49,022 bases of DNA from Neolecta irregularis DAH-3 (lineage: Eukaryota > Ascomycota > Neolectomycetes > Neolectales > Neolectaceae): contig LXFE01000904.1 of the NCBI GenBank assembly GCA_001929475.1, forward strand, positions 1-49,022, given 5' to 3'. The translations under genes were made by a program, and so were the position numbers. The notes under the pieces are model-generated. The model ran no database searches, was not told where the DNA came from, and worked only from the letters and a program-made list of their open reading frames with translations. Position 1 is the stretch's first letter; every line of letters starts with the position of its first letter. Below are positions 9,640 through 48,905 of this stretch, piece after piece.

Positions 9640-10791
9640 TTAGCCAGGAGGCTCCGCTATCCCGAGTTTTTCTATCATACTGCTTTCACCTGATTTCTCA
9701 GAGATCTTTCTCTTTTTATTATTCCGCGTTTTGTTAGCGTAAGGAGTTCCAACATCCTGATATCCTAGTTCTGCCAGCTTATCCTTTAGTGAATTTATAT
9801 GTACATCCTGGGTATTTTGTATAGACATTTGTTGGTCGAGTCGAGCTCGGAGGTGGGCATCGTTTTCTTGGAGCGTTTCGAGGCGGTCTTTAATCTGATC
9901 GAGTTTTGACTCGAGTTCGGAGACTTTCGACTTATATATATCACAGACGACATCTTTCTCGGCCATTTCTGTTCTCAGTTGTGCATTTTCGAGCTTCAGC
10001 CGCTCGACAAGTTCTTCTGGCGAGTGGAACTGCTGTTCTGCAGAAGAAACCGAATTTCCGGATGGATGAAATTGTTGGAGTGGGGGGGAGTGGGGAGGGG
10101 TGGACGTCGGAGTCTCTCGCGAGGAACTGGCGACCGATTCGTCCTCAAAAGTCTAGAATTGTCAGTAAGCAATACACAGTAGACAAAAGAATACCTTTCG
10201 TTTTGAGAGACCGCTGCTTTTGACACGATTCCGGCTTTTAATGACATCAGTTTTGAGACTATGAGGACGATTGCGACCGTGTAGCTTGAGAAACAACCCG
10301 CAGGCATTGCAGAGGGTTTTTCCGTTCTCGTCTCGTCTCCAGAGAGGAGTTGTCAGAGTATGGCAGTTCCAGCAGACGGGTGGATTTCCGGGACCAGATC
10401 CACTGGCGCCCGGGGTAGCTGTAGGAGGAGGATAGAGCATTCCGGGATGGGGCATTGGGCTGGAGGAATAAGCAGAAGGGAGGTGTATGGCAGGGTGGAT
10501 GTCGATTGGGGCTGAGTGCATGCTTGGAGCAGGATGCTGGTGCATTCCTGAGGAGACATGGTGCATATACTGGAGATGGTGGTGAGGTGGATAGCCATAG
10601 GGAAGGACTGCTACCTGCGGATGTTGCTGGAGATGTTGATGTTGCTGGAGATGTTGATGATGGCGTTGTTGTTGATGTTGTTGTTGTTGCTTATACTCAT
10701 GCTGCTGCTGGTGTTGTTGATGCTGCTGCTGCTGGTGTTGTTGCTGCTCATATTCATGTTGCTGTTGCAAACTGCCATGTGGTATCTGCAT
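9640..10791 (-). CDS. AreB/Gzf3/Asd4-type GATA transcription factor with C-terminal coiled coil
   Basis: This predicted regulator of 369 residues has two coding exons with an intron at 10194-10153. After a long Gln/His tract (residues about 8-60) and a His/Pro/Ser-rich stretch comes one GATA zinc finger, [14 protein letters not shown] then [13 protein letters not shown] (C-x2-C-x17-C-x2-C), followed by [16 protein letters not shown]. That tail after the finger is typical of the AreB/Dal80/Gzf3/NreB class, as is the C-terminal leucine-zipper-like coiled coil ([13 protein letters not shown] through [12 protein letters not shown]). A basic [10 protein letters not shown] may be a nuclear signal. 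These factors usually repress or modulate nitrogen-catabolic genes. The start is uncertain: the frame stays open for about 43 codons upstream without an ATG. Confidence 0.88.
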
Positions 10792-11131
10792 CTGCAGTTG
10801 GTGTTGAGTTTCCTGAGAAGCATCACTGTCGATTGGCTGAGCAGCAAAGCAGCCCGGACGACTGGCGGTGATAATTTGTGCCAGGGTTGCGAGGGTTGAT
10901 TTCTTGGCGGAGAGGCAAAGCTGGAATAGTCAAAAGAGAGGAGCAATGCGAAAATGCCACTCCACCGTGTTCAATCGTTTATCGATACTTAACGGCGGTG
11001 TCTTACCTGCCCTGCCCCTCTTTATATCAGCTTGGCATATACAAGTATATGCACTGACCACCGTGTACGAGTACTTTTCTCTACTCAAATGCCCATGCAG
11101 TGTATATTTGCTGCCAAGTCTGCTTCTAGCC
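10792..11131. promoter_or_regulatory. Divergent promoter region, GATA factor and LSB6
   Basis: This 340-bp spacer lies between the two start codons. On the minus strand a TATAAA (11026-11021) and a GTAAGA donor (11006) followed by TTGACTATTCCAG (acceptor at 10921) suggest a leader intron of 86 nt upstream of the GATA gene. The TATA lies only about 15 bp before that donor, so the two cannot both be used in the simple way. I see no clear LSB6 core element. Confidence 0.4.
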
Positions 11132-23898: not shown

Positions 23899-26353
23899 CT
23901 AGTCCAAAGCAACTGGTTTCTGTCCCCATCTAGTTTTGAAAACTACGAGTGGTTTTCCTTGTTGTTCCTTTTCATGTTGTTCTCTCCATTCTCGGCCTTT
24001 TTGAGCGAGAGCTCTAAGTTCCTGGATAAAGCGATCTTGGATCTCGTTGGGAGTTTCATCTTTTTCGGAAATGGTGTAGGATTCTAGACGACGTTGGAGC
24101 ATGGCGATATATTCGTTCATGGGATGTTTCATTTCAGAGTATTGAACTTCGACTTGCCAGTCGTCTTTTGAAGTCGGCATTGGACTGCCCTCTACGAGGG
24201 TTTCGTTAACAAAGGAATCTGTTTCGACGACGAGACCAAATACTTTATCGCAAGTTGAAAGATGGTCCTTGTCGATTTCGGGGGAAACGTCGCGTATCGT
24301 GACATGCTTTGCACCATTTGATTTCTCAGGTTCTGTTGGTTTACTGGGTTCCTTAGACTTGGAATCTTCATCATCATGGCCAGTGAGTTCGAGTTCATGC
24401 AGTTTTTCTTCAATCTTTTCAACGGCTTCGGGTTTAACGATGCCCTGAGCCGATTCAAGGACTGCTCTTACTGCGCCGGCTTGATGCTCGTTGATTCGTG
24501 TTTCAGACATGGCTTCGACGATAACATACATCCGGTTCCTCAATCCGGGGTCTGTGTCAAACATCATTCTCATAGACTTGTAGCGTTAGCTTTGTGCGGG
24601 TCACCTGCAACATACTTGGTTTGGAAACCGTTTTGTTGCTTTTTGCAAAATGTCCTCTAGGATAGTGATACTGAGTTTGAATTCGCGGTTTCCGATTCCG
24701 TGTTCATGGCTTCCATGAATAGCACAATCCATTTCTTCCAAGCTGATATACTGGAATCCAAAGATACGATTGGTATTGTGAAAGGCAACAAAAATCCCGT
24801 CCATATTTCCTATTCGGACTTGGAGAGAATATTTCAAGAAAGCAGATCGAATAAGATCGTAGTATTCCCGTTCAAATGATTCGTATTCGCCGTAATTGCC
24901 ACGGATTTCGTAGCCGGACCCGTGTTCTTCAGCATTTGCAATATCCATTCGAACAGCGATAACCGCGCGTGTTTTTAAATCAAAGATACCGCTTCCAGGC
25001 AATCTGGGGTCATAGCAATCGAGTTGAGAACGCATGAGTATATCTCCGCATGTCGAAAAGTGGTAAACTTCCCTTTCGTTTCTCTCGGAAGGGGTGAGAG
25101 TATGGGAATTTGTTTTTCGGTATTTTTCAAGGACCGAGGGGGCTACGGTGAGCATTTTTTCCATTGAACGGCCCTAGGATATTATGACCAGACAAAAAGA
25201 CATAAATGTACGAGCCAAGAGAGGACGTTGTTATCGGTATCTAGACTTTTATCTGCATCTATCGAGTAGATGCCGTTGTTGCATCTCAGAAAGATGGAGG
25301 ACGGTGCTCGCTGCGCTCTTGTAAAAGTTTTCAGCATGCCGCCGTATTTACTAGACAACTTGGAGATCGACACGGACCTCCATGAGGAAAGGAGGAAATG
25401 AAAGTGCGAGAGAGTGGCAGTCATGCTCGATGTCGATCCGACAAATGTGCAATTGTGTTGGCGAGCTAACGAATCGAGATTCTATAAAGAAGGAGATTAA
25501 CTACGATAGCGGGGAAAATATACTGTATCACGAGACGAAGTGATATATTCGAACAAGGCGTCATAGTCAAACTCTTTTTTGGGCATGATCTTTTCGATAT
25601 AGGGATCAAAATTGTATACGTTGGAGCGCGGGTCTCGCATGTACGTGACGCCAGGACTGCGAAGTGAATACAGGATTGGAGCAGACATACTTGAACAGGA
25701 CACGGTCAAGACCATGAGCAAGACCTGCAACCTTTTTTTGTCCAGGCAATATGACTTCTGCACAAGATCAGCTCGAGATCAACAGCAATGCAACCTTTTA
25801 TATGGATATTCTCCGGTTTGAGCGAGAGCGTCTGTACTGTAACAGACCCGTCGATTGTGACATTGAGCGGTTCAGGTGCGGTGGTGTAGCCGGAGCGAGG
25901 AAGAAATTGTATCTTAAAGTTTCCATCTAAGGGCTTTCGTAGACGCCATTTCAGCACACGGGCAGAGAGCGTCTCGTCTGTAGACCGCAAAAATTCTTTG
26001 CTGGTAGTAGCCTTCATTTTGGAGGTTTGTTTTGCAGTGTCAAACACTGGAGCGGGGTTGCTATTATAGTTGCTACCGTCACCCTGGTCCATCTGCTTTT
26101 GGTGGTTTGCTTTCAGGATCGCCGTCGCTGCCTGGGTCGCCATACTTCCTATCTTCGATGTCGCAATACAGCCCTTTGCTTTTTCCTTCAGGCTCAGAAT
26201 CCTGTCCTTGCAGCCCACCATCTGGCTCTTTGCCCTGCAGTATTTCTGCTGGCGGATTGCCGCGACTGACTGGCGGCAGTGCATAAACTGCATGAGAACA
26301 ACGAAAAAAAAAGCGAATAGAGGTGCGATTAGCGGCAGTCCTGAAATGGTCAC
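23899..26353 (-). CDS. PET127: Mitochondrial RNA-processing protein Pet127
   Basis: Pet127 is a mitochondrial membrane-associated factor for 5' processing and turnover of mitochondrial transcripts. It is related to PD-(D/E)XK nucleases. The longest model has 754 residues and six exons. Landmarks are GLAHGLDRVLFNPGVTYMRDPRSNVYNFDP, with intron at LFN, then GSTSSMTATLSHFHFLLS, IYSIDADKSLD, CYDPRLPGSGIFDLKTR (the D-x-K part of the nuclease motif), VRIGNMDGIFVAFHNTNRI and NQSMRMMFDTDPGLRNRMY. The start is uncertain: 26353 gives a hydrophobic leader, while later in-frame Met codons (LMQFMHCRQSVAAIRQQK) would give a more typical presequence. Introns are 34-42 nt and sum to an exact frame. The C-terminal region is charged and probably helical. 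Confidence 0.92.
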
Positions 26354-26600: not shown

Positions 26601-27974
26601 ATGGACGGCTGTCTGCTTTTTGCTCCGCCCGCAGACTCGGGCCTGCTCAAGCTGTCAAAGCTTACCGCCAAGTTCAAGCGCCGGTACATTGGTGGGCACA
26701 GGCAGAAAAAGCCGGCATGCTGATGCTGCAGTCATTGCATCCGCGGCAGACGGTTACGTGCTGTCCGTGTACAAAACCAGACCCAGGGGCGGTAAGCCAG
26801 ATCCCATCCATATATTCAGCATGCTTCGGTTTGCCGCTGCGTACATCACCGACGACAAGCCCCCGACGCTGATAGTTGCGGGCCGAGACTGTCCGCCTGC
26901 CGCGACGCCTACCGCCAGCTCCAACCCAACCAATGTCCTGCGCCTCGCCAGATCGTCGCGGCTGCCCTCCAGCAACAGCAGCGCCCCCGTGCTCATGTTT
27001 AGAAACGACCCCGATCTGCCCAACCAGCTCGACTCGTGGCAGCGCTTCATCACAAACGTCCTTCGGGTACGCCCATGCAAGTATCACGGCCTTACCGTGT
27101 CTAGTTTGAACTGACTCCTTCCCCGGCGGCCGCTGTGCCAATAGTAGCGCCTCCTGTGCAGCCCCAGGCCGGCGCCGTCGATGTCGCGCTCTCCCGCCTC
27201 GGGCCTTCCGTCGCGCATCTGTCAATGTCGTCGTCGTCGCCGTCCACCTACTCGTCGTTTGATGGCCACACCATCCGCCCGGTGCGCAGCAACCGCGGAT
27301 GGGACGCGCAGAGCGCATCGACCACGGCCAGCTCGCACCTGTGCGCGCTTTCAGCCGCAGAGGATGCCGGGCTCGACTCGCGGGCCGTGTCGCCGGTCGC
27401 CGCAGACAGAGCAGATCAAAGCCACCTGTCGATTCTCGACCGCGCCCTCCGCCAGCGCCACGGCCAGCTGCCAGGTGCATCGACCATCAGCGGCGTGCTG
27501 GACAGGCACGCATCGATGCCGCCAGACAGTTTTGCCGCCCAGCAGCGCTACCGCCCGTTCCCCCGCCGCAACACCTCCGCCTCAACTACAGTCTCCTCCA
27601 TCCACGGCAAACGCGAACCAGGCCTGCCAAAAGCAGCGGCAACCACCACCACCAGAGAGATCGCCGGCCACAAGAGTCCTGCTCCTCCGTCTCCGGCAGA
27701 AATTCGCGACATCCGGCGGAGCAGCATCATTAGTTTCATTAATCCCACAACCGTCGGAGGTACGGACAGTAACAGAAACAGCCTTAACGATTCAAGGCCA
27801 TCGACGTCGTCAAACGATACAGAAAATCTTTTGCTAGCTCTCAAAAACCGTTATTTATTCTCTGAGCGAGACCCAGAAGATTCCATCTCCATACGAAGAC
27901 GCAGCGTTCAATATGCCCCCGTCGGCAAACGGTTCAGTATCTCTAGCCTTGCAAGTATCGAAGGCAAATGCTGA
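26601..27974 (+). CDS. PH-domain protein with long disordered tail
   Basis: I do not recognise this 431-residue product as a named protein. Three exons are joined by introns 26692-26731 (40 nt) and 27067-27104 (38 nt). After splicing the N-terminal about 155 residues read like a pleckstrin-homology fold: GLLKLSKLTAKFKRRYIVI (beta 1-2), GYVLSVYKTRP, DPIHIFSMLRFAAAYIT, TLIVAG, VLMFRNDPD and a final helix with the invariant Trp (LDSWQRFITNVL). The rest is Ser/Pro/Ala-rich, with DSFAAQQRYRPFPRRNT and RRSSIISFIN as possible phosphorylation segments. Base composition is strikingly G+C-rich up to about 27700 compared with all neighbours. A role in phosphoinositide binding at a membrane or cortex is inference from the fold. 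Confidence 0.78.
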
Positions 27975-38655: not shown

Positions 38656-41600
38656 ATGGCCGCCCGTGGAATCGCACCGTCGCTGTTTTTGTATTCGCTC
38701 ACCCTTTTACCGCCTTCAGCAGCAGTTCAAGCAGTCGTTGGCCAATTTTCCGGGTTAAAACATCAGGAAATCATCGTTGCTCGAGGTTCTTGTCTCGTAA
38801 TTCTGCGTCCGGATACAGCACTCGGAAAAGTCGTTTCAGTTCTATCTCACAATACATTCGGCATTATCAGATCACTCGCGGCATTCAAACTCACCGGATC
38901 CTCAAAAGGCATTTTCCCTCTATTTTTCTGTTCTAACCCAAAGACTTTCTCATCGTCGGCTCAGACTCGGGAAAAATTGTCATTCTCGAATATAAACCAG
39001 ACACAAATATCCTCGTCAAAGTTCATGAGGAAACATTTGGCAAATCTGGCGTTAGACGAGTCGTACCCGGCCAGTACTTTGCTTGCGATCCCAAAGGCCG
39101 TTCAGTCATGATCACCTCGATAGAAAAGAACAAGCTTGTATATGTATTGAACCGAGATGCCGCCGCCAATCTTACTATCAGCTCTCCTCTCGAAGCGCAC
39201 AAATCACATTCAGTTGTTTTTCACATCATCGGATTAGACGTGGGCTACGAAAATCCTATATTTGCAGCTCTCGAGGTGGATTATAGCGAAGTTGACCAAG
39301 ATCCTACCGGAAAAGCCTATCGAGACTTGAAAAAGGTACAAAACCACACCTTCACTATTAACCTCCAGACCCTCACCTACTACGAACTCGATCTCGGTCT
39401 GAACCACGTTGTAAAAAAATGGTCAGATGTTGTTGATAGGAATGCAAACATGCTACTCCAGGTTCCTGGCGGATCAGACGGACCATCGGGCGTTCTGGTG
39501 TGTACTGAAGATTTTATCGTCTATCGACACCAGAACAAAGGCTCTTTTAGGATACCAATACCTCGCAGATTCGGTGTCTATGAAGATCTAGACAAAAAAC
39601 AAATCATCGTCTGCGCAGTCATGCACAAAATGAGAGTATGCATCACTGAAATAGAATAAAATAAACTCACTCAATAGGGTGCTTTCTTCCTCCTCGTCCA
39701 AAATGAATACGGGGATCTCTTCAAAATAACCATCGATTATGACGACAACGGCGTCGAAGCAGTCAAAATCAAGTATTTCGATACCGTACCCGTAGCTACC
39801 AGTCTGTGCATCTTGAAATCAGGATTTCTTTATGTTTCTGCAGAAACAGGAAACCATATGCTTTATCAATTTGAAAAACTCGGAGACGATGACGACGAAA
39901 TCGAGTTTTCTAGTGCAGATTTCGATGAAGAAACCAAACCATACTTTAAACCACGGCCATTAGAGAATCTTCTCGCTGTAGACGAAACAGAAAGCATGAA
40001 TCCCATCATCGATGCAAAGGCATACAAATAACCCTTGATCACAAACCTAATCTTTAGGTTCTTAATCTAACCAACGAAGATGCTCCACAAATCTATGCCC
40101 TTTGTGGTAAAGGACATCGCTCGACATTCAGAATTCTAAGACATGGTCTTGATGTAAACGAACTTGTCGCCTCAGAACTTCCAGGTGTACCTACAGCCGT
40201 CTGGACCACAAAAATCCGCAAATCAGATGAATTCGACTCATACATCATTCTCTCATTCACCAATGGAACATTGATTTTATCCATTGGAGAGACAGTGGAA
40301 GAAGTAACAGATACCGGGTTTCTCTCATCAACGCCTACAATTGCAGTCCAGCAACTCGGCCAAGATGCACTTATTCAGATCCATCCAGGCGGCATCCGGT
40401 ATATCCGCGCAGACGGAAAAATCGTCGACTGGAAAGCTCCAGCTCAAAAAACTATCCAACAAGCTACCACGAATCAAAGACAAGTCGCGATCGCATTGAG
40501 TAGTGGAGAATTAGTGTACTTTGAATTGGACAGCGGAGAATTACAAGAATATCGGGAACGGAAACAGATGACTGGTGCCATCACTGCATTGAGCATTGGC
40601 GAAGTCCCAGAAGGAAGAGCAAGGAATAACTTTATGGTTTGTTGATCCGAGAACGATGTTGATTTTCAGGCTGTTGCGTGTGATGATAGTACTGTTCGAA
40701 TCATTTCTCTAGATCCGTCGAGTACTCTTGATTCTCTTGGCGTACAAGCTCTCAGTGCACCTGCAAGCTCACTCGTAATCATGGCGATGGTCGACGGAAG
40801 TGCAGAACGTGCTGTTAACAATATATATCTTCATATCGGTCTACAAAACGGGGTTTATCTTCGAACACTAGTCGATAGTGTTACTGCTCAACTAACCGAT
40901 ACGCGTCTTCGCTTCCTTGGATCAAAACCTATTCAGCTGTTCAAAGTCAAGGCACAAGGACAAGCTGCCGTTCTGGCGTTATCGTCACGGCCATGGCTAG
41001 GCTACAATTTAAACTCCTCTCTGAAGTTGACGCCTTTATCGTATGACCCGCTTGAATATGGATGGAGTTTCTCAAGCGAACAATGCCCAGAAGGCATGGT
41101 TGGTATTCAAGGCCAGTCATTAAGGTAGTGATACTTTGGAATGGACACTGACTCTAGAATCTTCACGGTCGAAAAATTAAGCGATAATCTTAAACAAGAT
41201 ACAATTTCCCTTTCACATACGCCACGAAGAATGGTCCAGCATCCTCACCAACCTATTTTTTACATTGTCGAATCAGACAATAAGACAATTTCACAATCAG
41301 TGAAAACCCGTCTTCTCGCCTCTAAACAAAACGGAGAAGCATTTGATCTTGCGCCAAAGGACTTTGGTTGGCCACAAGGCGGACCTGGGAGATGGGCATC
41401 GTGTATTCGAATTTTGGATCCTTTACTAAAACAAACTGTCTTGCAAGTCAACTTGGAGGAAGACGAAGCTGCCTTTTCAATCACTGTAACAACATTTAAA
41501 ACTCACGGTGACGATCTTTTCCTTGTTTTTGGAACTGCAAGTAAAGCTATTCTTGCTCCAAAGAGTTTTGCAGCCGCCCATCTTCACGTTTACAGACTGG

Positions 41601-42553
41601 CCCCCGATGGACGACAAATTGAATTTCTGCACAAGGTATTTTTTCTCATTAGACAATTGAATTTCTGACAAGGAGACTGAAGTGGACGATTTACCGACAG
41701 CTCTACTTCCCTTCCAAGGCCGACTTCTCGTGGGAGTAGGTCCATCCCTTCGAATCTATGATATTGGGCAAAAACGACTTTTACGGAAATGTGAACTTCG
41801 AGGTCCATTAACTTCGGTAGTCTCACTTCATACCCAAGGAAATCGAATCGTTATTGGCGACGTTGCAGATTCTGTTCATTTTGCAGTATACAAATACGCT
41901 GAAAACCGACTCGTGATTGTCGCGGATGATGAGGTTAGTCGATATACTTCAGCAACAGCAATGGTTGACTACGAAACTATCGCTGGAGGCGACAAATTTG
42001 GTAATTTCTGGCTTGTAAGATGTCCAGAACAAGCAACTAAAGAAGCCGATGAAGATCCAACGGCATCCCACCTCGTCAATGAGAAGCCATTTTTACACGG
42101 TGCACCATATCGGTTGAAGTCGCTTGCATCCTATTTCATAGGCGATATACCTACTTCAATGACTAAGACCTCCCTTGTTCCTGGTGGTCGAGAAATATTG
42201 TTGTATACAGGATTATCCGGATCAATCGGTATTTTTGTGCCATTTGTCAGTAAAGAAGACGTTGACTTTTTTCAACAATTGGAGATTCACATGAAGAGTG
42301 AGGAGCCTCCTCTTGCTGGTCGAGATCATCTTGCTTATCGAGGGTATTACAATCCTGTAAAAGGTTGTATCGACGGAGACTTGTGCGAGGTATCTGTCTT
42401 GTTTCTTTTCTACTACAGTTTTTCTAATTTTACAAGCGATATGGATTGTTGCCTCATGATAAGCAGCGGTTGATTGCAGGTGAACTCGACCGTACAGTTC
42501 AAGAAGTACAAAAGAAAATTGAAGATATGAGAGTTCGTGGTGTTGCATTTTAA
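38656..42553 (+). CDS. RSE1: Splicing factor SF3b subunit Rse1 (SF3B3/SF3b130)
   Basis: This U2 snRNP SF3b scaffold holds the branch-site machinery. The product is 1210 residues in eight exons forming three beta-propellers of the CPSF_A/DDB1 type. Landmarks: [115 protein letters not shown] and [13 protein letters not shown]. The C-terminus [20 protein letters not shown] is restored by the last splice (47-nt intron). Two introns are GC-AG (38909-38943 and 40020-40057). The others are 33-47 nt GT-AG and the frame is exact. Confidence 0.96.
38909..38943 (+). other. GC-AG intron in RSE1
   Basis: This 35-nt intron begins GCATTTTCC, has the branch-like TTCTAACCC and ends AAAG. It joins GSSK to [11 protein letters not shown]. 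Confidence 0.88.
40020..40057 (+). other. GC-AG intron in RSE1
   Basis: This 38-nt intron begins GCATACAAATAA, contains CCTAATC and ends TTTAG. It joins IIDAK to [12 protein letters not shown]. Reading through meets a stop codon at once. Confidence 0.88.
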
Positions 42554-45354: not shown

Positions 45355-48300
45355 ATGGCCTCATCTCAAACGAAGAACATCGTAGTTCTGCCTGGCGATG
45401 GGTATTCTTGTCGTTAAATAGAGAAATTAAACTCAATATGCTAGTGTCGGTCCTGAAGTCATTGCTGAAGCACTCAAAGTTCTCAAAACTATTGAGCGAG
45501 TTCGACCAAACGTTTCCTTTAATGTCAATACTTTTATGATCGGAGGCGAAGCGATTGTATATGTTGTTCATACCATTGGCTCACTGGCGATAGGATGCGA
45601 CTGGATCGCCGCTACCTGATGATACTTTGAAAGCTGCCAAAGCTGCAGATGCAATTCTTCTCGGTGCAGTTGGCGGTCCAAAATGGGGGACCGGACCAAT
45701 CAGACCCGAACAAGGCCTTCTCAGGATTCGCAAAGAATTGGATGTATTTTCAAACATCAGACCATGCAATTTTGCCAGTGAAAGTTTGTTGGACTTTAGC
45801 CCTCTAAGGGAAGAAGTCGCCAAGGGCACAGACTTTACTGTCGTTCGAGAACTCGTTGGCGGTATTTATTTTGGAGAAAAGATTGAAGATGATGGATCGG
45901 GACATGGTATTATCTTCTACATAACATTACACTGAAGTGGTAGCCCGTGATATGATGCCATATAGCAAAGCAGAGATTGAGCGAATCACCCGAGTCGCAG
46001 CATTCCTTGCGATGAAGCAAAATCCACCTGCACGAATCCATTCTCTTGATAAAGGTATGATATCAGCTAACCACATTAAAATAATCTTTGTACAGCAAAT
46101 GTACTTGCCACCTCTCGATTGTGGAGAAAGACGGTCACCCAAGTCTTGTCAAAAGAATTTCCTCAAGTTAAGTTTGATCACCTCTTGATCGATAGCGCAG
46201 CTATGTTGGTCATCAAGAATCCCCGTGCATTGAACGGAATCATTCTCACTGAGAACATGTTTGGGGATATCATCAGTGACGAGGCCAGCGTCATTCCAGG
46301 CTCATTGGGACTTTTACCATCAGCTTCCTTGTCTGGAATCCCAGACGGAAAGAGTCGAACTAACGGAATTTACGAGCCTATTCATGGAAGCGCGCCTGAT
46401 ATCGCAGGAAAAGGAATCGTTAATCCTGTGGCTGCTATTTTGTCAGTTGCCATGATGTTACGATATTCTCTTGGACTTGCAAATGAGGCTCAAGCTATCG
46501 AAGATGCTGTTCGTAAAACCATCGATTCTCAAGAACTCTGCGGAGAAGGCATTCGCACAAAAGATATTGGTGGACAGTCGTCGACAAGTGAAGTCGGAAA
46601 TACAATCTGTACTGTCCTCGAAACATATCTTGAAGGTCTCAACTCGGCTGAGCGAGTTGACATAAAAGTACCCAGGGAGTTGACATCATCTCGACCGGCT
46701 GGGCGAAGACCGATGACTATCACAGAAAAGATTATAGCCCATGCTGCGATCAATCTCCCGCCGCCAGGAAATGTCAAACCGGGTGATATGGTCTGTGTGC
46801 ATGTTGACTGGACGTTGGCCTCTGAACTCACTTGGAAGGGGATGGAAAAGACTTACGACCAAATGAAACGGCCAAAGATCCACAGAAATGACAGATTTTG
46901 GCTTGCAATCGATCATACTGTTGATCCACGAACCTATCATCTTCCGAAAACTAAGAGTCTTGTTGAAGCTTCACTGAGCTTTTCCAAAGAAGCGAAACTA
47001 GTAGACTATCTTAGGCCGAATACCTCTATCCTTCACACGGAATTTTACCGCCAAAGAGCGCAACCTGGCCAAGTTATCATTGGAGCCGATTCGCATTCTT
47101 GCTCTGCTGGAGGTCTCGGAGCCTTTGCTGTAGGTCTCGGAGCAGCTGATGTGGTTATGCCTCTCGTCACTGGAGAAACTTGGTTTAGCGTCCCAGAGAC
47201 TTGCGAAATCAAGTTTATTGGAGAACCTCCTTTTGGAATTGGTGGTAAAGATACCATTCTCTACGTCCTTGGAGAGCTAAAACGAAACACTGTTGCTTTT
47301 GAACGGTCGGTAGAGTTTACTGGACCCGGATTAAAACATTTATCTTGCGATGCTCGATTTGCCATTGCGAATATGTCGACTGAATTCGGAGGTATCGCTG
47401 GTGTCGTGGAAGCAGATGAAATTACCGCAGCTTACATTTCTAAACGAACGAATCTAGCACACAAAAACAACGCGATATATTTTAGAGCAGATCCTGATGC
47501 CGAATACGCTGTGTCTTACACTATCGATCTCTCGAATGTTGAGAGTTTGGTCGCAGTCTATCCTAGCCCCGACAATGTTGTTTCCGTCGATGAAGCAGCT
47601 GATACTCCTCTTGATGGCTGCTTTATCGGAGCTTGTACAACTGCCGAAGAAGATCTAATTCTTGGAGCATTAGTTCTTGAAGCTGGGCTAAAGAATGGAA
47701 TGGTACCCATCTCCACGGGCCAACGCAGAGTAACCCCGGGGTCTCTCCCTATCCTTGCGAAGCTTCGAAAACTAGGGCTTTTGGCGGTCTATGAACGGGC
47801 TGGATTTACAGTTGGTGCTCCTGGATGTAGTTACTGCCTTGGTATCGCGGCTGATATTGCCGGTGAAGGAGAGGTTTGGCTTTCCTCTCAAAATCGAAAT
47901 TTCAAGAATCGAATGGGTAAAGGAAGTATTGGAAATCTTGCTTCTGCCGCGACCGTTGCAGCTTCTTCGTTCAATATGAAAATTGCCAATCCGCGGGTCT
48001 TGTTGGACTCTATCGACCGGGCACGATACTCTAGAATTCGCGAGGCTTGGTCTGAGGGAAATTTGCCCAAGATCACTATTTCCGAACCGATGCCTACACC
48101 TGTCGAGAATGCAAAACTGGAGGACGTTGTCGACAGTATTCAAAAGGTTTCCGATGGAGAGACCAAGCAGAAGAGGGTTATCAGTGGAAAGGTGCAACGA
48201 TTTGAAGAAAATGTAGATACCGATGCTATTATTCCTGCGCCTTTTATGCCTGGCAAGGATGGTATGTCATTTGATGAATTTCAGGATTCAAGTTCTAGAT

Positions 48301-48905
48301 CAGGATCTGGGGACACATTGTTTTGAATATTACAGACCAGAGTTTCGCCAGCGGGTCAAGGATGGTGCAACTATTGTGTACGTCTTGTACAATGTTAGTA
48401 TTGACTAGAAAGCGTCGCTGGTAATGGATTTGGATCCGGATCCTCACGGGAAGAGGCTCCGCGAGCGCTCATGGGAATTGGAGTGCAGTGTGTCATCGCA
48501 CCAGGTTATGCATTCATTTACGGACGAAATCAACTCAATATGGGACTTCTTGGGATTATTATCAAGGACGAGGAGTTTTATGAACTTTCCAAGGAAGGCG
48601 CTGTTGTCAGCATCGATCAAGATAATCTTGTCGTTACCGTTCAAGGCTTCGACAAAAAGTTTACCTTCAAGTTAACGGACTTTGAGCAAAAGCTGATTTC
48701 TGTAAGCATTTGGTCATTCTCCCCATTTTTGATAATTTCTCAGGGCGGTGGAGTTACGGCACTCTATGACAAATTCGAGAACCAGTTGTTTAGAAGTCTC
48801 TTGAGACCTGATGATAGTCAAATACAAGGCGGCTGTGGAAATGAAGTTGAGACAAGCAAAAGTGGTGATGGGTGTGGAGATACAAAACAAACGCTCGCTT
48901 GGTAA
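45355..48905 (+). CDS. LEU2-LEU1 fusion: isopropylmalate dehydrogenase plus isopropylmalate isomerase
   Basis: One 1094-residue frame in eight exons encodes two consecutive leucine-pathway enzymes. Residues 1-385 are 3-isopropylmalate dehydrogenase: [57 protein letters not shown] and [16 protein letters not shown] linker of about 15-20 residues ([15 protein letters not shown]) leads to a LeuC-like aconitase domain from about 403 ([25 protein letters not shown], with Fe-S ligands in GACTT and GCSYC). A LeuD-like swivel domain starts near 890 ([26 protein letters not shown]). No stop, intron or spacer lies between halves: one exon runs 46098-48261. There is no targeting signal, so it is probably cytosolic. 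The isomerase half is not the usual fungal Leu1 type. A biosynthetic role outside leucine is possible. Confidence 0.9.

Follow-up and report, generated by a model that had tools for sequence, protein, structure and literature searches.

A LeuB-LeuCD fusion protein in the ascomycete Neolecta irregularis and its relatives in early-branching fungi and protists

Does Neolecta irregularis DAH-3, an ascomycete, make two consecutive leucine-pathway enzymes as a single protein and, if so, how did it come by it? LEU1 and LEU2 are textbook examples in yeast genetics, their separation is the rule in Dikarya, and leucine synthesis has been proposed as a target for antifungals. We addressed the question at a locus on contig LXFE01000904.1 (assembly GCA_001929475.1), whose full 49,022 nucleotides form the window analysed here, and where an initial annotation had proposed that a 3-isopropylmalate dehydrogenase (IPMDH, LeuB) and an isopropylmalate isomerase (IPMI, LeuCD) are joined. 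The LeuB-LeuCD fusion in Neolecta is real, neither an artefact nor unique. It is probably a cytosolic bifunctional leucine-pathway enzyme and an old fusion, most likely retained in the Neolecta lineage. Its interest lies in its distribution, in a tail resembling the signal of the cytosolic iron-sulfur cluster assembly (CIA) system and in its survival in an early ascomycete.

Two complete enzymes in one reading frame

The final gene model (Table 1) has seven introns of 35-43 nt each with GT-AG ends; the acceptor of intron 5, at 48298, was chosen by comparison with relatives. It encodes a complete LEU2-type dehydrogenase followed by a complete single-chain isomerase (LeuC plus LeuD). A stored N. 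irregularis DAH-3 protein (P0001, 1,094 amino acids, database name putative aconitate hydratase) is identical to the 1,092-residue model except for two additional residues at intron 3, where our choice agrees with the length in relatives. Pfam assigned Iso_dh to residues 8-365 (E = 2e-130), Aconitase to 460-820 (E = 5e-71) and Aconitase_C to 933-997 (E = 4e-14) in the numbering of the initial 1,094-residue model, E-values that exclude chance domain matches. The eight-exon frame, these domains and the match to P0001 bear out the earlier proposal that one polypeptide joins two consecutive leucine-pathway steps. The reading frame is unbroken over the LeuB/LeuC junction, and exon 5 (46096-48261, 2,166 bases) holds the C-terminal half of the dehydrogenase, LeuC and the start of LeuD. 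A single exon does therefore link the two halves, as annotated, but the GSGSSRE loop ascribed to it sits in exon 7. The dehydrogenase is also not limited to the C-terminal half that the initial annotation had recognized, exons 1-4 being small: residues 1-194 lie in those exons, and the Iso_dh profile is matched from position 1 to 348 of 348.

Table 1. Coordinates of features in the N. irregularis window
Feature	Position	Strand	Basis
Whole eight-exon gene for the bifunctional IPMDH-IPMI fusion (about 1,092 amino acids)	45355..48905	+	Exon model, stored protein P0001
LEU2-type 3-isopropylmalate dehydrogenase domain (residues 1-365), from exons 1-4 and the first part of exon 5	45355..46607	+	PF00180, TIGR00169
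Junction: end of LeuB C-terminal helix and linker, residues 366-400	46608..46712	+	AlphaFold
In-frame ATG in a weak initiation context; encodes Met401, probably the first residue of the ancestral isomerase	46713..46715	+	Profiles, alignment
LeuC-type large isomerase domain, Fe-S cysteine codons from 47634, 47826 and 47835	46713..47996	+	Profiles, Pfam, alignment
LeuD-type swivel domain and disordered tail; introns 48262-48298, 48378-48412 and 48702-48743	48186..48893	+	PF00694
GSGSSRE swivel loop	48432-48452	+	Exon 7, alignment
C-terminal tripeptide Leu-Ala-Trp, CIA-targeting-like tail	48894..48902	+	Tail counts in relatives
Neighbouring RSE1/SF3B3 gene, approximate span	38656..42470	+	Exon pieces; best matches Saitoella, Pneumocystis

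Using the Neolecta protein as a query, we scored the 7,996 candidates sharing most words with it and listed the best 120 of 1,106 matches. Both Iso_dh and Aconitase are present in 119 of these 120 (the exception is P0098), so the same fusion does occur in other fungi, as the initial annotation had suggested looking for. A single alignment spans the junction in 117 of the 120 and runs from residue 30 or earlier to residue 1,000 or later in 96, and some entries are transcriptome sequences by name (TRINITY, Phypoly_transcript). The Neolecta protein shares with this family both the order Iso_dh, Aconitase, Aconitase_C and end-to-end similarity. An assembly join between the halves, which the annotation had named as a way in which the fusion might prove false, is contradicted by these spanning alignments and by the position of the join inside one exon.

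Residues expected in the active sites are intact in both halves, judged across 46 aligned fusions selected from the 120 matches. The dehydrogenase half passes the TIGR00169 leuB equivalog cut-off (486.1 versus 353.2 bits, residues 8-365). Thirteen positions, mapped by what we take to be Thermus IPMDH numbering, comprise the catalytic Arg, Tyr, Lys and Asp and the hydrophobic substrate pocket; all are present in Neolecta, and each is conserved in 41-45 of the 46 fusions. The three Fe-S cysteines of the isomerase half are conserved in 45, 46 and 46 of the 46 and the serines and arginine of GSGSSRE in all, as the initial annotation had read them; the Asp-His pairs are also retained. Judged by their residues, both halves look active.

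An AlphaFold model of the fusion, built on the alignment of 46 fusions, has a mean predicted local distance difference test score (pLDDT) of 85.7 and a predicted template modelling score of 0.85. Its top Foldseek matches are IPMDH structures (target-normalized TM-scores 0.85-0.94), followed by aconitase entries in the PDB (0.68-0.70). The Neolecta protein thus resembles LEU2/LeuB in profile score and fold, but differs from it in carrying a C-terminal isomerase.

Where the halves meet, the model has a helix at residues 360-384 (P0001 numbering) and mostly coil after it. The initial annotation had suggested that the ATG at 46713 could serve as a separate start for the isomerase, giving two proteins from one gene. 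A methionine does stand there in 43 of the 46 aligned fusions, but its conservation is explained by ancestry: the isomerase profiles begin at residue 401-402, so that Met401 reads as a probable relic of the ancestral LeuC start. The longer junction pattern PM[TN]..EK, sought as a regular expression, was found in just 33 of 101 proteins. The 46713 ATG has C at -3, a poor context, compared with G at -3 and G at +4 for the first ATG, and other ATGs lie upstream. We regard a separately initiated isomerase as very unlikely.

Distribution of the fusion, its isomerase and its tail

Among the listed matches, fusions come from Mucoromycota, Zoopagomycota, Chytridiomycota, Blastocladiomycota, Physarum (to which we assign the Phypoly prefix) and other protists, and from a divergent clade of Pezizomycotina. 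Named sources include Glomeromycotina, Mortierellomycotina, Endogonales, Calcarisporiella, Kickxellomycotina, Entomophthoromycotina, Dimargaritales, Chytridiomycota, Piromyces and Blastocladiomycota, with higher groups presumed by us from the names. Identity to Neolecta is 56-67% for the named full-length fungi outside Dikarya and 47-55% for the Pezizomycotina set. These proteins share with Neolecta the same domains, a similar length and, in most, a C-terminal Trp; the difference is that Neolecta is the sole member of Taphrinomycotina named. No Basidiomycota, Saccharomycotina or other Taphrinomycotina are named among the best 120 of the 1,106 matches.

The earlier statement that LEU1 and LEU2 are separate in most fungi fits Dikarya, but outside Dikarya the fusion is common. 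Database names of fusion entries are 3-isopropylmalate dehydrogenase, putative aconitate hydratase or hypothetical protein, and we found no description of a LeuB-LeuCD fusion in the literature searched. The Neolecta protein belongs to a widespread and apparently undescribed family of such fusions. Much of the fungal tree seems to carry a fused leucine enzyme with an isomerase of another subfamily, which bears on annotation, on drug-target reasoning and on how the pathway came to be rebuilt in Dikarya. As the fusion is common to many early-branching fungi and some protists, it looks old and would have survived in Neolecta.

With a second protein search, the number of proteins carrying LeuA, LeuB and LeuCD in one chain reached nine (P0101, P0104, P0105, P0109, P0110, P0113, P0114, P0121 and P0122); the profile scan covered P0109 and three others. 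They are 1,340-2,302 amino acids long, with three consecutive leucine enzymes per polypeptide. One is a eukprot transcript and the rest are metagenomic or genomic entries, with P0105 cut at its start. They share the LeuB-LeuCD core of Neolecta but have 2-isopropylmalate synthase domains in front of it, whereas in Neolecta LEU4 is separate and of yeast type. The two- and three-enzyme fusions form a natural set for tests of substrate channelling.

Some of these proteins carry inserts. In P0113 the LeuA part contains an intein-like insert (residues about 331-580), immediately next to a conserved cysteine; Pfam Intein_splicing is below its cut-off there (23.6 versus 35.8 bits), and the relative P0114 has no insert. 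In P0121 and P0122 a large insert starting CLAEDMEVLTDRGF follows GSPGCSYC, from about residue 1225, at the Fe-S cysteine motif of the isomerase; by eye it resembles an intein N-terminus, with no intein family above threshold.

The initial annotation had placed the isomerase half in an archaeal/aconitase-like subfamily. It was right that the half is not of canonical leuC type (140 bits under TIGR00170, whose cut-off is 560), but archaeal enzymes are nearest only among solved structures. When prokaryote genomes were scanned, one genome per species, the isomerase half as a single sequence found no relative, and an alignment of four isomerase halves found 61 bacterial loci, whose titles assign most of them to Myxococcota and related groups. 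We therefore dropped the archaeal label and, with it, an archaeal origin. On sequence, the isomerase half is nearest to the single-chain LeuCD of Myxococcota and other bacteria (Planctomycetota and Gemmatimonadota among them). Like it, these are one chain. Identity, measured for 60 of the 61 loci, is 44.7-55.1%; the maximum comes from a 135-residue fragment, and locus L028 reaches 53% over residues 1-658. They differ in that none of the 61 has a fused LeuB in the sequence fetched. Fungal Leu1 likewise has LeuC and LeuD in a single chain and the same expected reaction, but the Neolecta isomerase is not of canonical leuC type and is fused to IPMDH.

The fetched flanks hold a LeuB-like gene at 10 of the 61 loci, a LeuA-like gene at 12 and either at 20. 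The LeuB-like gene directly upstream of LeuCD at L062, the one of the ten that was classified, scores as a 3-isopropylmalate dehydrogenase (401 versus a cut-off of 393 bits); two flanking LeuA-like proteins were scored, and neither passed any cut-off. At L062 (2898-6022) and L071 (2707-5941), both Myxococcota-type loci, the order of the LeuB-like gene and LeuCD is that of the eukaryotic fusion, and an upstream gene of this type is just 36% identical to fused LeuB.

At the other end of the chain, Trp is the final residue in 98 of the 101 listed matches of at least 1,000 amino acids (exceptions P0087, P0103 and P0111), and 90 of the 98 fit [LIM]xW. None of 55 complete bacterial LeuCD relatives ends in Trp. 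The published CIA targeting signal is [LIM]-[DES]-[WF], and the CIA targeting complex recognizes fungal Leu1 by a tail of this kind, absent from bacterial orthologues (PMC10623007). The Neolecta tail is in this respect like that of Leu1, a known CIA client (PMC10623007). A 2026 preprint reports that a penultimate Ala is tolerated in Leu1 with only modest effects (PMC13082141), so the Leu-Ala-Trp of Neolecta would fit the CIA signal in its physical properties but departs from the strict motif. We infer that CIA probably loads the Fe-S cluster of the Neolecta enzyme, and the family is likely an independent case of an Fe-S enzyme acquiring a CIA-like signal. The fusion tails (48800-48902 in Neolecta) also contain two cysteines within the last 45 residues in 10 of 10 of the first long matches counted, often within a Gly-rich stretch.

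Origin of the gene and the rest of the pathway

Since no other Taphrinomycotina are named among the fusion matches, and since wild fruiting bodies were the source of the published genome (14.5 Mb, 44% GC; PMC5309816), the contig or the join might be an artefact of contamination or assembly, not Neolecta DNA. Against this, besides the single exon and the alignments across it, stands RSE1, 3 kb from the fusion gene. Its three best matches are Saitoella complicata, Pneumocystis jirovecii and P. murina, all three Taphrinomycotina, and all named sources among its 120 listed matches are, by our assignment of the genera, ascomycetes. The RSE1 query was roughly pieced together, with residues 1-1000 scored, and no identical stored RSE1 is among the matches listed, a point in favour of an artefact. 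The GC content of the window (44%) equals the published value. Given this neighbour, the contig is ascomycete and not a mucoromycete contaminant; we rejected contamination, and consider an artefact of either kind extremely unlikely.

Phylogenetic trees were built from 51 of the 120 listed proteins. Two long eukprot sequences, P0100 and P0111, were left out of all whole-protein and LeuB-half trees except a quick posterior mean site frequency (PMSF) tree, and ten Pezizomycotina sequences were additionally left out of one tree and of the approximately unbiased (AU) tests. The tree of the LeuCD half, a tree of the kind called for by the initial annotation, used 20 of 22 chosen eukaryote sequences (P0053 and P0092 lacked the cutting motif) and 21 of the 61 bacterial loci. 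The whole-protein trees unite the fungi (100/100 under LG+G4; 100/99 without Pezizomycotina) and recover the sampled fungal groups. Neolecta lies inside the fungi and within no single group with strong support. Whole-protein trees join it to Pezizomycotina (97/93 under LG+G4; 93/91 under PMSF, read from the Newick file), as does the LeuCD half (91/96), and neither the quick PMSF tree nor the tree without Pezizomycotina places it firmly; in the latter it groups with Mucoromycota plus Zoopagomycota at 53/18. The Pezizomycotina clade is diverged, on a long stem (0.61 under LG+G4, 0.75 under PMSF), and the Neolecta end branch ranges from 0.33 to 0.61 over the trees (0.33 under LG+G4, 0.40 under PMSF).

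We favour retention in the Neolecta lineage over an old transfer. Horizontal transfer from a mucoromycete is in keeping with about 61-68% identity to Mucoromycota, with the LeuB-half tree, in which Neolecta stands beside Glomeromycotina (88/88), and with AU tests, in which neither a grouping of Neolecta with Mucoromycota (p = 0.247) nor one with Glomeromycotina (p = 0.272) is rejected. Set against it are the joint placement with Pezizomycotina by whole-protein and LeuCD trees and the end branch, which indicates no recent copy of any sampled sequence. On balance such a transfer is rather unlikely.

To place the fusion within the pathway, we searched 8.96 Mb of the Neolecta genome on 363 contigs, about 62% of the published 14.5 Mb. 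This part contains two genes like NAD-dependent isocitrate dehydrogenase (NAD-IDH), a homoisocitrate-dehydrogenase-like gene, an NADP-dependent isocitrate dehydrogenase, homoaconitase and LEU4. No separate LEU1 or LEU2 was found in it. The search, which the initial annotation had called for, thus agrees with a fusion that is likely the sole LEU1/LEU2 enzyme of Neolecta, but over a partial assembly it is suggestive only. On contig C10 of this genome (G000), an Iso_dh fragment at 24859-25014 repeats, by eye, an exon of a NAD-IDH-like gene about 3 kb from the full copy, at the contig end; it aligns to the LeuB half at just 26% and is a duplication or an assembly repeat.

The Neolecta LEU4 is of yeast type (TIGR00970, 826 versus 697 bits), a type said to have a separate origin in Dikarya (PMC2904702, PMC9202105). 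Neolecta would on this basis combine a Dikarya-type first enzyme with an early-fungal-type fusion.

Proposed function and alternatives

We propose that the C-terminal LeuC-LeuD half, a [4Fe-4S] isomerase, would convert 2-isopropylmalate to 3-isopropylmalate, which the N-terminal LeuB half would oxidize with NAD towards the leucine keto acid. In the cytosol, the CIA targeting complex would read the free C-terminal Leu-Ala-Trp, probably loading the Fe-S cluster. The fusion looks old, with an isomerase half akin to the bacterial single-chain LeuCD type now seen in Myxococcota, and most likely the Neolecta lineage kept it, whereas LEU1 and LEU2 are separate in other Dikarya.

Several results weigh against this reading. 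None of the NCBIfam models listed for the isomerase half gives it a score that reaches the curated cut-off, including the HacA / IPMI_arch large-subunit superfamily models TIGR01343 (283 versus 386 bits), TIGR02086 (278 versus 410) and NF001614 (314.5, or 315, versus 385), so its substrate can only be inferred. The conserved stretch 781-794, beside the Fe-S cysteines, has pLDDT below 50 in the AlphaFold model, as have residues 868-875, 880-884 and the last 28. The Neolecta ending LAW departs from the strict [LIM]-[DES]-[WF], a form present in just 34 of the 98 Trp-ending matches. ACO1 was likewise not found in the 8.96 Mb, which, together with the 62% coverage, makes the absence of LEU1 and LEU2 weak evidence. 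The two halves disagree on nearest kin, with LeuB alone pointing to Glomeromycotina. Finally, Mortierella alpina is reported to have a separate LEU1 homologue (leuA2) beside LEU2 homologues, so some fungi may possess LEU1 as well as the fusion; the main text of that paper uses neither the word fusion nor the word fused (PMC8880518).

The missed isomerase cut-offs and the M. alpina homologue would also suit a specialized metabolism, raised in the initial annotation, in which the fusion extends a non-leucine keto acid in a homotyrosine-like manner and leucine is made through separate LEU1 and LEU2. The Pezizomycotina copies, diverged on their long stem, are what a specialized copy might look like, but the Neolecta end branch in the same two trees is shorter. 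The LeuB half is a clear leuB equivalog (486 versus 353 bits) with leucine pocket residues, the searched part of the genome yielded no separate LEU2, and the genes nearby have housekeeping roles, namely RSE1 and a kinase judged by eye to be Dbf2/Sid2-like. We judge a specialized role improbable and keep leucine synthesis as the presumed function.

A broader history is tentative, and we put it forward as possible rather than probable. The fusion may be the ancestral leucine enzyme of fungi and some protist relatives, with a myxobacterial-type isomerase that gained its CIA tail separately from canonical Leu1. Dikarya would have replaced it with LEU1 and LEU2, and Neolecta would rely on the fusion alone plus a newer LEU4, which would make its pathway a mixture of older and newer parts. 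The proteins with all three enzymes might take the idea further, with three committed steps per chain and possibly channelling.

Elsewhere in the window, overlapping long open frames of 270, 289 and 229 codons occupy both strands at 26674-27974, where GC content is 61% compared with 44% for the window. At 10162-10929, the minus strand encodes, by eye, a GATA-type zinc finger protein that contains a long repeat of glutamine and histidine.

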